IMG/VR virus record: IMGVR_UViG_3300045902_000798 | Coordinates: 1-34,559 of that record | From: a virus | DNA length: 34,559 nucleotides | Direction: 5' to 3' (one strand) | Shown here: positions 3,776 through 9,678 of the stretch, one piece after another | Numbering within the stretch: position 1 is the first letter of the stretch | Layout of the letters: each line of letters starts with the position of its first letter | Notes under the pieces: generated by a model | Databases searched by the model: none | Told to the model about the DNA's origin: nothing | The model's input: the letters and a program-made list of their open reading frames with translations, nothing else | Program-made: the position numbers and the translations under genes

Positions 3776-3938
3776 AACCGTACTCATGTGCTCGCCCGAG
3801 GGCGAGGTGCAGGAAGTGGAAGCCACGCCGGCGAAGATCGTGCCGCTCATGGTGCGTGGCTGGCGGCAAGTCACGGAAGAGGAGGGAACGCCTGATGTCC
3901 GTCGCGCGGATGCAGGAGATCCAGATCTGCTTCGGTAA
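3768..3938 (+). CDS. small phage protein, 56 residues
   Basis: A short gene starts at ATG 3768, overlapping the previous gene by eight bases, and stops at TAA 3936-3938, overlapping the tail tube start. It encodes MTETVLMCSPEGEVQEVEAT..., then VPLMVRGWRQVTEEEG. This resembles the many tiny phage proteins with an acidic strand followed by an RGWR motif that are found next to tail genes. The overlaps on both sides fit a coupled gene better than chance. The function is unknown. Confidence 0.55.
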   Translation: MTETVLMCSPEGEVQEVEATPAKIVPLMVRGWRQVTEEEGTPDVRRADAGDPDLLR

Positions 3939-4935
3939 GCAGAAGCAGGCCGACATCTCTACGCCCAACACCGGCGTCCAGATGTGGCAGTTGCGGAAGT
4001 TGAACGCGCAGCTCGCCAACCCGAAGCTGAACACGGAAAACGACGCCGAAGAGTTCGGCAAGGGCCACGAGTTTCCCACGCAGTCGTTCCAGACTTCGTG
4101 GGACGTGAACGGCACGCTCGAGAAATATCTCGGCGCGGAGATCGGCGCCTGGGCGATGGCCTTTGGCCTGGGCAAGGTTGTGAAGTCTGGCACGGCGCCG
4201 AACTTCACCTACACCTGCACGCCGCTGTTTCCGGCGAACGGCGATGCGGCCGAACTGCCTTACTTCAGCTTCGTCGAGCAGATTCGCCCGGGCGCGGGCG
4301 TCGTCGTGGACCGCATGGCCGTGGGCTGCGTGGTCGAAGGCTGGACCATCTCGATCGGCTCGGGCCCGGGCCGCGCGAACTCGAAGATCACGGTCGAGTT
4401 CGTCGGCTCGGGCAGGTACGTCGAGCCCTCGGGCATCACGATGCCGGCGGCGACCGTCGAAAAACTGTTGCCCTCGGCGTCGCTGGCGCTCACGATCAAC
4501 GGCGTCAACTACGTCTCGAACAAGAACATCGTTTCGCTCGAAACCTCGTGGAAGAACAACGTCCGGATGGACGGCGGCTTCTATCCCGGTTCCGGCTTCC
4601 AGACGGCGGGCGACGGCGCAAGCGGCGCCATCCGCGGCCGCCTCGAGTTCGGCAACCGCCAGGGGACGCTTCGGTTCGTCGCCCGCTTCGAGAACGGTTC
4701 AACGGAGCTCACGAAACTTCGGCAGCAGACGACAGGCACTGCGGTGCTGGCGCTCACCTACGACGCCAACAACTCACTCGAAATCACTTGGCACAAGGTC
4801 TCGTTCTCTTCCGCCGAGGTCGGCGAGACCGACGGCATCGTCACCGTGTCGGTCGAGTGCCTGCCGATGTGGGATGAGACCAATGGCATCGTCTCGGCCG
4901 TGGCGAAGTGCAGCGTGGACGGCATCGCTCAGTAA
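3895..4935 (+). CDS. phage tail tube protein
   Basis: ATG 3895 is chosen because GAGGAGGGA lies just upstream; a GTG 39 bases earlier would add a basic stretch unlike the family. The 346-residue product has the repeated beta-strand pattern of a long tail tube (major tail) protein. It includes FPTQSFQTSWDVNGTLEKYL, a middle segment GWTISIGSGPGRANSKITVE and a C-terminal FSSAEVGETDGIVTVSVECL. It would polymerise into the hollow tube around the tape measure protein. Its place directly before the frameshifting chaperone and the tape measure is the standard siphovirus order. It is longer than a typical 200-residue tube protein, so it may carry an extra surface domain. Confidence 0.75.
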   Translation: MSVARMQEIQICFGKQKQADISTPNTGVQMWQLRKLNAQLANPKLNTENDAEEFGKGHEFPTQSFQTSWDVNGTLEKYLGAEIGAWAMAFGLGKVVKSGTAPNFTYTCTPLFPANGDAAELPYFSFVEQIRPGAGVVVDRMAVGCVVEGWTISIGSGPGRANSKITVEFVGSGRYVEPSGITMPAATVEKLLPSASLALTINGVNYVSNKNIVSLETSWKNNVRMDGGFYPGSGFQTAGDGASGAIRGRLEFGNRQGTLRFVARFENGSTELTKLRQQTTGTAVLALTYDANNSLEITWHKVSFSSAEVGETDGIVTVSVECLPMWDETNGIVSAVAKCSVDGIAQ

Positions 4936-4944
4936 GGAACTGCC

Positions 4945-5547
4945 ATGTTTGACGCAAAGCAACCCATCACCATCCAACTGCGCACGCCCGATGGCGTGAA
5001 GCCCGTCCGCGTGCGCTTCCCCTCCGACGAGGAGTGGATCGAACGCCAGAAGAAACGCAAGGTCATCGTGAAGCAACTGGGGCGTGGTGTCTCCGAAACG
5101 ACGATCCCCGACTCGGCCGAAGCCGATGCCGCCCTGCTCGCCAGGATCCGCGCGCCGGAGGAAAACGCGCCCGAGGTCGATGCCTTCGAAGCCAGCCGCA
5201 TTATCGAGCAGTTGAGCCAGGCCGATGTCGATGACGTGGTCCAGGTGGGCGACGGCTTCCGCGTGACGATGCGCGTCATCGGCGGCACGGTGAGCCACGT
5301 GCTGCGAATGCCCTCGGCTAAAGATGTGTTTGAGTACCGCCGCGGCTTCGCGCGCGTGCTCGATCTGCCCTACAACCGCCAGGAACTGATCATCAACCTG
5401 GCGCCGGCGGCCGCGCTCTTTAAGAAACTCCTCGAATCCTCCGAGGGCTACTCGGGCGACGTGCCCGTCATCCACCAAGCCGTTGCGGTGAAAGCCGCGA
5501 TCGATGCTGTGGACGGCGTCTTCCAGGAGATCGGCGACCCAAACTGA
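4945..5547 (+). CDS. tail assembly chaperone, short form (gpG-like)
   Basis: This 200-residue acidic protein lies nine bases after the tail tube gene and is in the position of lambda gpG. It has TIQLRTPDGVKPVRVRFPSD, a helical centre and LPYNRQELIINLAPAAALF. It would coat and fold the tape measure protein during tail assembly. The last codons before TGA 5545-5547 are CCA AAC, forming the heptamer C CCA AAC at 5538-5544, a -1 slippery site. A minority of ribosomes would continue in the -1 frame to make the extended form. I do not recognise close sequence family members; the call rests on context and the frameshift signal. Confidence 0.7.
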   Translation: MFDAKQPITIQLRTPDGVKPVRVRFPSDEEWIERQKKRKVIVKQLGRGVSETTIPDSAEADAALLARIRAPEENAPEVDAFEASRIIEQLSQADVDDVVQVGDGFRVTMRVIGGTVSHVLRMPSAKDVFEYRRGFARVLDLPYNRQELIINLAPAAALFKKLLESSEGYSGDVPVIHQAVAVKAAIDAVDGVFQEIGDPN

Positions 5548-5876
5548 CGCCCGGGGAGTGGCCGGAGCGGCCCTCCCTGCGATTCTTGATCCACTGGGCC
5601 CTTCGCCGCGACGAACTCTGTGACCCGAGCCTCTGCCCCGACGCGCCCGACGACGGCAGCCGCTGCGATCACTGCCCGCTCGACAAGCTCGATGCCGCGC
5701 AATCCTCCGAGGCGGGTCTGCTGCTCCGGCGCGCGCTCGACCTTCGGGCGGCGCTGAAGCTGGGCATCCGGATTTCCCTTGAAGAAATCCGAGCCGACGA
5801 GTTCTACGCCATGTTGGTCCTCGAAGAGGAGCGCGAGCGGCTGGATCAAGAGAGGATCGATCACCGAAGGTCCTGA
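4945..5876 (+). CDS. tail assembly chaperone, -1 frameshift product (gpGT-like, about 310 residues)
   Basis: After slippage at 5538-5544 the -1 frame is open through LTPGEWPERPSLRFLIHWAL and on to TGA 5874-5876, adding about 110 residues. This extension has no good start codon of its own (only a TTG at 5586), which supports its being read as an extension. It contains a C-x4-C-x9-C-x2-C cluster (CDPSLC...CDHC) that could bind zinc, then LRAALKLGIRISLEEIRADE and an acidic helical end. In lambda the T extension recruits the tail tube protein to the tape measure. The same role is inferred here. Confidence 0.7.
5538..5577 (+). promoter_or_regulatory. programmed -1 frameshift signal (slippery heptamer plus hairpin)
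   Basis: The heptamer CCCAAAC (5538-5544) is in the zero-frame phase C CCA AAC, matching X XXY YYZ, and the zero-frame stop TGA follows at once. Nine bases downstream is a hairpin: GGGAG (5554-5558) pairs with CTCCC (5573-5577) and GGCC (5560-5563) with GGCC (5569-5572), with a bulged T and a five-base loop. Heptamer, spacing and hairpin together match known tail-chaperone frameshift sites. Confidence 0.75.
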
Positions 5877-6424
5877 TTGGGCGTAACCGCCTCTATTGGA
5901 ATCCAACACTCGGTTTCATCCTCGCGCAGGTCCTTGAATTTCTCGTCTACTAGTCGGATGCGCGCCTTAGTGAAAGTCTTCTCCAAAACCTTTACGCGAT
6001 CAGGCGGGCCGACGAATATAGGCCCTTCCCATCCGGCGCGTCTCGCTTCCCGGCCTGTCGCTCTCAGGAACTCTTCTCGATCAATAGCGCCCGCTTTTAT
6101 GATGCGATTCAGAGCGTCCTCTGACGGAGCGCAGACCGCTGGCTGTGACACGGATACAGTGCTGCCAATCGTTGCTGATCGTGGGTGGCCGGTGTTATCC
6201 GAAAAGAACAACACCTTTGCGAGCCAAATTCCGACGGCCAGGGCAACGATCGTCGGAAATACCCTGGGGCGCGTAGTCATCTTTGCTCCCTGCTCACCAT
6301 TCGTAGCGACTGGCGCGCGGTTCTGTACCGGCGGCAAGGAGGCGCCAGCCAGCGTGAACGCGTGGCCGCAATCACATCGATCAGCACTCGCCGGATTCTC
6401 AAGCCCGCAGGCAGGGCAAGTCAT
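5861..6424 (-). CDS. zinc-ribbon membrane protein, antisense cargo (moron)
   Basis: This gene is read against the late operon. ATG 6424 is preferred because the product then begins MTCPACG, typical of zinc-ribbon proteins. A further-upstream start at 6463 would run into the tape measure ribosome-binding site. The 187-residue product has Cys3, Cys6, Cys17 and Cys19 (CPACG...CDCGHAF), one membrane helix at about 56-75 (FPTIVALAVGIWLAKVLFF), and a soluble C-terminal domain with GAIDREEFLRATGREARRAG. It ends 16 bases inside the chaperone extension, converging with it. Local base composition is less GC-rich than its neighbours, suggesting recent acquisition. It is probably a lysogen-expressed cargo gene. 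The function is unknown. Confidence 0.65.
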   Translation of the reverse strand: MTCPACGLENPASADRCDCGHAFTLAGASLPPVQNRAPVATNGEQGAKMTTRPRVFPTIVALAVGIWLAKVLFFSDNTGHPRSATIGSTVSVSQPAVCAPSEDALNRIIKAGAIDREEFLRATGREARRAGWEGPIFVGPPDRVKVLEKTFTKARIRLVDEKFKDLREDETECWIPIEAVTPNQDLR

Positions 6425-6474
6425 AACTACAAAAGCATGCCATGAGTCGTTGCTGAATAACAAGGGCGATTCCT

Positions 6475-9400
6475 GTGGGGGCTGACAACAAGCTCGAACT
6501 GGTCGTCACCATCGAGGTGGACAAGGCGAACCAGTCCATCAAGAGCATCAACACCAACCTCTCGAACATCGAGGCGACCGCCACGAAAGCTGCGCGCGGC
6601 GCGGCGCAGGGCATTGACGGGATGACCGCCGCCATGCTCAAGGGCGCGACCGCCGGGAACCTGCTGGCCGCCGCCATCCAGAGCGCGCTCACCTGGGCCA
6701 AGGAGTTCACCGTTGGCTCGGTCATGATGGCGGCCGAGAATGCCAAAGCCGAAGCCTCGCTCAAGGCCCTGGCCAATGCGCACGGCGTGGGCGCGGCCGC
6801 TGCGGCCAGGCAGGTGGCGGCGATCGAAGACATCGGCTTCGAGTACACCGAAGCCGCGCATGCCGTGCAGCGGTTGATCGTGGCCGATCTGGAACTGTCG
6901 AAAGCGCAAGGCCTGGCGAAGTTGGCCAAGGACGCGGCGGCGGTCCAGAACATCACAGCCGGCGAAGCGCTCGAATCCATCGTGATGGCGATCGAGTCCG
7001 GCGCTTCGCGGGGCTTGCGCACGCTGGGGCTGTTTGTCGACTTCCAGAAAGAAGCCCAGATCGCCCAGCTTCAACTCGGCCGGGCTCTGACTGAGACGGA
7101 AGAGAAGCAGCTTCGCTACAACACGGTCATCCGTGAAGGCGCCAAGATCCAGGGCGCGCATGCCGCGGCATCGCAAACGGTCGAAGGGCAGCTGGGCGCG
7201 CTGCGGCGCGAGTTCAATAACCTGCGCGAGGACATTGGAGCCAAGTTCCAGGATGACTTCAAGGCGCTCGTCGGCAACCTGCGCGGCCTGGTCGGCTGGC
7301 TGCGAGAGAACACCGACCTGCTCAAGAAGTTCGGCGAGGTGGCGCTGTGGGTCTCAGGTATCCTTGCCACCTACGCGCTGGCCGACAAGATCATGGCTCT
7401 CGCGAAGTCGATCGCGGCGCTTCAGCTTGCCAGCATCAACCCCTACGCCCTGCTCGCGGTGGGTGTCGCCGGCGCGGGCTTTGCCATCTACTCGCAGTGG
7501 AAAGACACCCAGGATCAGATTCAGGCGCGCTTCGACGAGATGCAGCGGAAGGCGCTGCGGGATCAGCTTCTCACCGGCAAGACCAGCGTTGAAGCGCTTC
7601 GCAAACAGGGCATGACGGATGATCAGATCCGCGAACTGATCACCGGTAACCGCCTGCTGCCGGGAGAGCAGCCGTTCACTGATGAAGGTCCGAAGCTCAC
7701 CATCAAATCCTCGAATGAGCCGGACCTCGAAGCACTGAAACGGGCGGCCGAGATCCGGAAGCGCCAGTTGGAGGTGGAGCGCGAGAGCGCACGGGCGTTC
7801 GAAGAGTCGCAGCGGCGCGCACTTACGGGATTCGCGCGGGACGTGGCCGAGGTTCAGGAACAGATTCGAAAGTGGACCACGTTCGTCGATGAGCGCGGCA
7901 ACGAGCAGCGCATCGCCCTCACGCGCAAGGCCTGGGAGAACGTGATCGGCGAACTGCGCGTCCGTCTGGCGAACTGGCAGAAGGAGGTCCAGGAGACCAA
8001 CCGCAAGAATCTCGCCGAGTATCTGGCCGCGGAAGAGGAAGCCGCGCGCCGGCGGCTGGAACTGGAGGCGCAAGTCTACGCCCAGCGGCTCGCATACAAC
8101 GAGGAGATCTCCAAGCGGAACCTCGATCACCTGGAGCAGATGCTCGGCATCGAGGAGCAGCGCGCGGGCATCACACGCGAATCCCAACTGCGCGTGCTCG
8201 ATGCCACGAATGCGCAGACGCTCGAGCAGAAGATCGCCGTCGAGCAGCGCAAAGCGGCGATCGAGATCGACTACATCACGCGGGTCCACGAGATCCGCAC
8301 GCGGCTGTTTGACCTCGAAACCTCGCGGATGGTGATCGAGGAAGAGGCGGCGATGAAGCGGCTCGGTTATCGGGCCGACGAAATCCAGGCGCGCATCGCT
8401 GAGCTTACCGCGCAGCGCGATGAGATCCGCCGGTTCCAGCACGAAGCCACCGACGCCGCCATTCAGGGCGCGCGCGAAACGGCGGCCGCGCGGCAGGCGC
8501 AGTTGGTGCGCGACCAGAATCAGCGGATCTTCGATTCCTTCAAGCGGCAAGCCGAGGGCGTCTTCGATGCGCTGCTCACGAAGTCGCAGTCCATCTGGTC
8601 GGCCATCGGCAACTCGCTCAAGACGGCGCTGCTGACCGCGATCAAAGACGTGGTTAGCTCGCGCATTGCCGCGATGCTGATGCAGTTATTCACGGGCACG
8701 CGAGTGTCGCTGGCTGGTGGAGGCGCTTCTGGTGGCGGTGCGCTCGGCAGGCTCGGCGGTCTGCTCGGCATCGGCGCGGCGCCGGTCTTCGGGCAGGGTG
8801 GTGGCCCCATTCCCGGCGGCGCGGCCGGAGGCTGGGGCACGCCGCCGTTCGTCCCCTCAAGTAGCGGCGGCTGGAGCGGTCTGCTCGGCGGGTGGAAGGA
8901 TTTCTTCGGCTTCGGCGGTGGCGTGCAGTATGCACCAGGCAAGGCCGTGACCTGGGAAGCGGCGACCATGGGGCAGAAGCTCTCCGCGCTCGGGCGCTCC
9001 AATGCTGCGCTGCTGGGCGGCGCGACGCTTGCGCTCATGGGCCTCCAACGCGGCGGCGTCTCGGGTCTCGCGATGACCACCGCCGGCGGCGCAATGATCG
9101 GCGCGAAGTTCGGCGGCCCTCTCGGCGCCGCGATCGGGGCTGGGATCGGTGCGGTCGCCGGGCTCGTTCGGCTGTTCGTCAAAGGGGCGCGGGAGAAGGC
9201 GCGCGAGAAGATCAAGGCCACTTACGGGGTCGACATCCGCGAGAAGAACATCCTGGCCGAGATCGTGAACATCGCCAAGCAGGGCTTCGGCGGCAACCTC
9301 GACCTGGCCATCCGCAGCCAGCAGATCCGCGACCTGGTTGAACTCTATGCATTGTCCACCGGGCAGAGCACTTCGGGCCTCCCGCCCATGGTGCGCCCAG

Positions 9401-9678
9401 TGTCGCTCCTTCAGCAGGGAGGGAGCCTCTTCCAGCAGAGCAGTAGTGGACTGTCGCTGGACCGCATCGGCGGCGGCGCGCCGTCGTCCGCAGCCGGGCC
9501 CACGGTGATCAACATCACCGTGCCCGGGGCGAGGGAGTTCTTCGAGAAGGAAACGGTGCGCGTGGTGGTCGAGAATCCGCGCGCGGTGCAGTCGGCGGCG
9601 ATGACCGCAACCAAAGCCAGCGCCGGCCGCCGCGAGATGACCGGGCTGCAACTCAGCCCGGGGTTGATTCTGTCATGA
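6475..9678 (+). CDS. tail tape measure protein
   Basis: This 1067-residue protein starts at GTG 6475, with AAGGG eight bases upstream (6462-6466). The N-terminal part (about 1-380) is alanine-rich and helical, with segments such as AAMLKGATAGNLLAAAIQSA and VSGILATYALADKIMALAKS that look like TMP membrane-active regions. Residues about 420-690 form long charged coiled coils. About 740-890 is Gly/Ala-rich and hydrophobic (GAMIGAKFGGPLGAAIGAGI). It acts as the ruler for tail length and is ejected into the cell envelope during DNA entry. The length suggests a tail of roughly 150-160 nm by the usual 0.15 nm per residue rule. It normally follows the chaperone directly; here an antisense gene separates them. 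Confidence 0.9.
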   Translation: MGADNKLELVVTIEVDKANQSIKSINTNLSNIEATATKAARGAAQGIDGMTAAMLKGATAGNLLAAAIQSALTWAKEFTVGSVMMAAENAKAEASLKALANAHGVGAAAAARQVAAIEDIGFEYTEAAHAVQRLIVADLELSKAQGLAKLAKDAAAVQNITAGEALESIVMAIESGASRGLRTLGLFVDFQKEAQIAQLQLGRALTETEEKQLRYNTVIREGAKIQGAHAAASQTVEGQLGALRREFNNLREDIGAKFQDDFKALVGNLRGLVGWLRENTDLLKKFGEVALWVSGILATYALADKIMALAKSIAALQLASINPYALLAVGVAGAGFAIYSQWKDTQDQIQARFDEMQRKALRDQLLTGKTSVEALRKQGMTDDQIRELITGNRLLPGEQPFTDEGPKLTIKSSNEPDLEALKRAAEIRKRQLEVERESARAFEESQRRALTGFARDVAEVQEQIRKWTTFVDERGNEQRIALTRKAWENVIGELRVRLANWQKEVQETNRKNLAEYLAAEEEAARRRLELEAQVYAQRLAYNEEISKRNLDHLEQMLGIEEQRAGITRESQLRVLDATNAQTLEQKIAVEQRKAAIEIDYITRVHEIRTRLFDLETSRMVIEEEAAMKRLGYRADEIQARIAELTAQRDEIRRFQHEATDAAIQGARETAAARQAQLVRDQNQRIFDSFKRQAEGVFDALLTKSQSIWSAIGNSLKTALLTAIKDVVSSRIAAMLMQLFTGTRVSLAGGGASGGGALGRLGGLLGIGAAPVFGQGGGPIPGGAAGGWGTPPFVPSSSGGWSGLLGGWKDFFGFGGGVQYAPGKAVTWEAATMGQKLSALGRSNAALLGGATLALMGLQRGGVSGLAMTTAGGAMIGAKFGGPLGAAIGAGIGAVAGLVRLFVKGAREKAREKIKATYGVDIREKNILAEIVNIAKQGFGGNLDLAIRSQQIRDLVELYALSTGQSTSGLPPMVRPVSLLQQGGSLFQQSSSGLSLDRIGGGAPSSAAGPTVINITVPGAREFFEKETVRVVVENPRAVQSAAMTATKASAGRREMTGLQLSPGLILS

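Follow-up and report, generated by a model that had tools for sequence, protein, structure and literature searches.

The window analysed here is the whole of a 34.6 kb IMG/VR virus contig (34,559 nucleotides). Its tail operon contains two overlapping reading frames, which we refer to as G and T, and the features of this locus are:

3856-4935, plus strand: tail-tube candidate, 359 aa (phrog_290, tail, E 1.5e-18; its position is that of the tail tube gene in phage RcKemmy)
4945-5547, plus strand: zero-frame open-reading frame G, putative tail assembly chaperone, 200 aa (relatives; tail-tube candidate on one side, tape measure on the other)
5538-5544, plus strand: slippery heptamer C CCA AAC, in frame (X XXY YYZ) and invariant in close relatives
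5538-5876, plus strand: -1-frame open-reading frame T, C-terminal domain of the predicted G-T fusion (conserved protein; codon-position signal)
5545-5547, plus strand: zero-frame stop TGA, adjoining the heptamer (0 or 1 codon 3' of it in relatives)
5552-5579, plus strand: putative stimulatory hairpin with a 7-bp stem, a bulged U at 5559 and an upper stem of 3-5 bp (fold and covariation)
5619-5675, plus strand: Cys-X4-Cys-X9-Cys-X2-Cys motif in T, zinc-binding-like, its four cysteines invariant in 16 diverse relatives
6475-9678, plus strand: tape measure protein, 1067 aa (phrog_167 and phrog_934, tape measure, E 3e-5 and 6e-4)

The 3' end of G reads GAC CCA AAC TGA (5536-5547), which places C CCA AAC in frame at the last codons before the stop, as a preliminary description of this DNA had reported. 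The -1 frame is open from 5538 to 5873 and closes with TGA at 5874-5876, giving 112 codons from the slip codon and 110 after the shift, and hence a fusion of 310 aa (200 + 110); the lengths first proposed, ca. 110 residues for the open frame and ca. 310 for the fusion, agree with these counts.

Searches of viral contigs and GTDB genomes provided more than 150 distinct relatives. Relatives lacking the heptamer had been named beforehand as one of two observations that would count against frameshifting, and C CCA AAC was kept by all 84 distinct relatives sharing at least 72% amino acid identity in G, with covariation in the hairpin. When 69 relatives (≥75%) were aligned by an anchor 3' of the site, with the heptamer itself ignored, the only 7-nt windows with zero variation, from ca. 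640, were those at the heptamer, and elsewhere in G the proline codon it contains, CCA, is used less than any other proline codon (76 of 1442, 5%). A related heptamer, C CCA AAG, is listed as highly shift-prone in E. coli (PMC5009743). For C CCA AAC itself we came across no tail-chaperone example in the literature; a search combining CCCAAAC with frameshifting, which covered few subscription papers, returned unrelated subjects only.

Precisely at the heptamer, the fast-evolving codon position ceases to be that of frame 0 and becomes that of frame -1. Before the site, variability is highest at the third codon position of frame 0 (0.46 vs. 0.15 and 0.13), and after it at the third position of frame -1 (0.35–0.47 vs. 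0.04–0.14), in a set of sequences picked by the presence of the heptamer, so that the zero variation inside the heptamer in this comparison follows from the picking. Purifying selection acts on both sides of the frame break, and the identical break occurs at the identical place in ca. 155 distinct contigs from IMG/VR and GTDB genomes, which argues against the two frames being a sequencing error or a decayed pseudogene. Such events do occur in single relatives: in L185 (10603-10700) an additional base brings T, 3' of the stop, into frame 0, and in L063 (5600-5700) a deletion shortens T and breaks the -1 frame, each owing to either a sequencing error or a decayed prophage. As an account of the family as a whole, we consider the chance of error or decay negligible.

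A second possibility is that T is a separate gene with its own start, coupled to termination of G, the heptamer being incidental. Of 156 relatives, 73 do have some start-like codon, in most cases a GTG or TTG at +41, and near the site in the window the sole such codon in the -1 frame is the TTG at 5586. However, between the last upstream -1-frame stop and the first conserved cysteine codon of T, ATG, GTG and TTG are all absent in 83 of the 156, and a start-like codon with a Shine-Dalgarno-like 4-mer upstream was found in two and in none of the other 154. Start identity is not maintained at +41 (TTG, CTG, CTC, CTT, GTG and others occur), in four relatives (L054, L055, L056 and L153) a -1-frame stop directly adjoins the heptamer, and constraint on the T protein begins at the heptamer itself, upstream of every start codon. 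Coupling would also leave an invariant heptamer built with the rarest proline codon unexplained. The early remark that the -1 frame has no good start codon thus extends from the window to its relatives, which generally have no usable T start, and expression of T from a start of its own, the second observation named beforehand as adverse to frameshifting, is very improbable.

Downstream of the heptamer, the GC-rich hairpin of the preliminary description is present, with a local fold of -21.8 kcal/mol (z -2.37, equalled by 2 of 200 shuffles), but the distance of nine bases given for it did not hold: the spacer is 7–8 nt, as the stem starts at 5552, or at 5553 if the G-rich core alone is counted. 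A 73-nt segment containing the hairpin is of ordinary stability (z -0.66). The covariation score of the hairpin, 0.065 against 0.035 ± 0.006 in shuffles (0 of 500 as high), is supportive but short of decisive, because the shuffle control leaves relatedness in. Slid pairings score at most 0.028, and 89.6% of hairpin cells are paired compared with at most 68% in slid versions. The stem also carries compensatory G-C to C-G changes, including GGGGAG/CUCCCU to GGCGAG/CUCGCU. A covarying RNA hairpin at the spacing usual for ribosomal slippage is not what slippage of the transcribing polymerase would call for; nor is there a long homopolymer on which the latter could occur, the site offering only CCC and AAA, and relatives keep the heptamer in one phase with respect to frame 0. 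Transcriptional slippage is accordingly a most improbable source of the second product.

Taken together, the heptamer, the codon-position switch, the missing starts and the hairpin are far better explained by a programmed -1 ribosomal frameshift than by any alternative, and comparative sequence evidence indicates that the site almost certainly serves to yield two tail-assembly chaperone products from one start; we infer both the occurrence of frameshifting and its efficiency. Most ribosomes would read CCA AAC and terminate at TGA to release the 200 aa G protein, whilst a minority would be slowed by the hairpin 7–8 nt downstream, the proline and asparagine tRNAs would slip back together from CCA AAC to CCC AAA, and the slipped ribosomes would continue to 5876 to produce the 310 aa G-T protein, which would carry a junction peptide of the type ...DPNLTPGEWPER. 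The conserved in-frame X XXY YYZ near the end of G, the position of the G/T pair between tail-tube and tape-measure genes and the overlap of T with G in the -1 frame without an initiation signal of its own are all features of lambda G/GT-type systems, in which downstream RNA structure is frequent but not obligatory and is present in the window. The assignment to the lambda G/GT type made at the outset is borne out by the conserved heptamer, the covarying hairpin and the gene order, and on sequence grounds the locus represents a -1 frameshift of the lambda G/GT type, in prophages of Acidobacteriota (Bryobacterales) that form an unannotated family.

We infer the role of G and T as a tail assembly chaperone from gene order and the frameshift itself, not from protein similarity. 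Neither protein has a match in Pfam, PHROGs or PDB sequences, so automatic annotation would miss gene and fusion alike, and neither was found in cultured phages (INPHARED). The structural model predicted for T (pLDDT 84) is helical outside the cysteine motif and gave no significant structural match in fold searches; the model of G was of low confidence (pLDDT 44), too poor for a fold search. On the model of lambda gpG/gpGT, the predicted task of G is to coat the tape measure protein, and that of the T domain, in which the four cysteines are invariant, is to bring in the tail tube protein.

The slip site itself is exchanged between relatives. In a census of 160 usable relatives, 114 carry C CCA AAC, which the stop follows immediately in 82 and after one sense codon in 32. 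In another 26, C CCA AAC is lost and A AAT TTT or A AAT TTC is found one codon further 3', and the remaining 20 lack any X XXY YYZ heptamer, with NNT TTT or NNT TTC in its place. Register is kept throughout, with ...D P N F stop (CCA AAC TTC TGA) corresponding to ...D A N F stop (GCA AAT TTY TAG), and then to GCA AGT TTT TAG. On a tree from which the slip region was omitted, built from G and T together and midpoint-rooted so that the direction of each change is unsettled, the A AAT TTY label changes 8 times and the non-heptamer label 9 times; at least 4 and at least 5 of these changes, respectively, are forced by well-supported branches, which implies that replacement of the slip site has been repeated. 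A double-site intermediate, C CCA AAT TTY followed by a stop, was sought by a pattern scan of viral contigs and none was found. The most distant relative found (L283, 45% identity in G) has GAT TTT TAG together with a conserved T, so the family extends past the sampled set.

This variation bears on the role of the stop codon. The preliminary description had suggested that the abutting stop may itself raise slippage; for C CCA AAC this is unsupported, as 32 of the 114 sites have a sense codon between heptamer and stop, and in HIV-1 a stop codon at the equivalent place lets release factor compete with frameshifting (PMC4373837), so that stop-promoted slippage is not required here. It may, however, apply in the sister lineage, at the NNT TTY TAG sites. 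These comprise AGT, ACT or GAT TTT TAG and AGT TTC TAG, at which tandem re-pairing fails, since AGT, ACT and GAT cannot re-pair as AAG, AAC and GGA; the Phe codon alone is able to re-pair after a -1 step, in the P site, with the stop in the A site. The stop lies directly 3' of TTY in 19 of the 20 non-heptamer sites (18 TAG, 1 TAA), and 35 of 36 sites with a displaced stop retain a heptamer. In the one exception among the 20 (L356, ca. 2090-2140), the expected site (AGT TTT CAA) has no stop, and the zero frame ends only ca. 13 codons later. The mean local hairpin z is -1.9 at C CCA AAC sites, -1.7 at A AAT TTY sites and -0.3 at non-heptamer sites, where the hairpin is on average absent. With a stop adjoining TTY and on average no hairpin, a stop-assisted P-site slip is plausible in the sister lineage, and we tentatively suggest, with somewhat less than even confidence, that the tail-chaperone frameshift of these phages moved to a non-heptamer NNT TTY TAG site, mostly hairpin-free, at which the P-site Phe tRNA would slip with a stop in the A site. 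If true, the stop codon belongs to the slip signal, and the ratio of G to G-T would depend on release factor activity.

Genome-borne relatives are almost all in Acidobacteriota, mainly in Bryobacterales and Solibacter MAGs, and often occur in several copies per genome. The distance from the stop of T to the start of the tape measure gene (5877-6474 in the window) is ≤60 nt in 72 of 136 relatives and >400 nt, up to ca. 4.5 kb, in 59 of 136 (the gap was noted in L008, L030, L036, L053, L056, L178, L186, L187, L188 and others). The cargo sampled from these gaps, mostly on the opposite strand, includes HicB and HicA-like proteins, a Gp49-like toxin, an HTH antitoxin and a TIR protein, as well as an AAA/AbiEii-like ATPase, YhcG/DUF1016 nucleases (PADLOC PDC-S02) and an AIPR/AbiU-like protein. 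This cargo makes the space between T and the tape measure gene a hotspot of defence and toxin-antitoxin genes within the tail operon. The cargo open-reading frame of the window (5861-6463, minus strand) encodes an N-terminal CPxCG...CxCG zinc-ribbon-like motif and a hydrophobic stretch; it has no Pfam match and few relatives, which are partial only.

The locus provides a solid comparative case of tail-chaperone frameshifting in Acidobacteriota phages. The ca. 160 relatives with their three types of slip site form a natural series on how a frameshift signal may be exchanged while function is kept, and C CCA AAC TGA, A AAT TTT TAG and AGT TTT TAG are concrete sites that bear on whether an A-site stop can replace a heptamer.

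Xu, Hendrix and Duda (2004, as cited in PMC5009743) reportedly surveyed tail assembly chaperone frameshifts family-wide. The G/GT chaperone frameshift of lambda, and its wide conservation, are established (PMC5009743). As in the window, lambda has an overlapping G and -1-frame T between its tail tube and tape measure genes, with a heptamer near the end of G and a T without a good start; the window differs in the use of C CCA AAC, the immediately adjacent stop, the strong covarying hairpin, the four invariant cysteines of T and proteins without detectable sequence kinship to known chaperone families. A second point of comparison is given by Rhodobacter phages such as RcKemmy (MW677517, genes 15/16), to which the capsid-protease fusion of the window is ca. 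39% identical. Gene order in RcKemmy is like that of the window (capsid-protease fusion, head-tail, tail tube, chaperone, tape measure and minor tail genes) and its chaperone is annotated as a frameshift join; its sequence has an in-frame G GGA AAC ca. 90 nt before the zero-frame stop. The T frame of RcKemmy has cysteines too, in a CxxC...CxxC stretch at its start; a profile comparison of G and T from the window family with the RcKemmy chaperone gave no significant similarity, and the cysteine pattern is for this reason a lead only. Finally, the g-t frameshifts of the haloarchaeal viruses HCTV-1, -2 and -5 resemble the site in the window in that the -1 heptamers of their tail chaperone genes end in AAC or AAG (PMC5009743).
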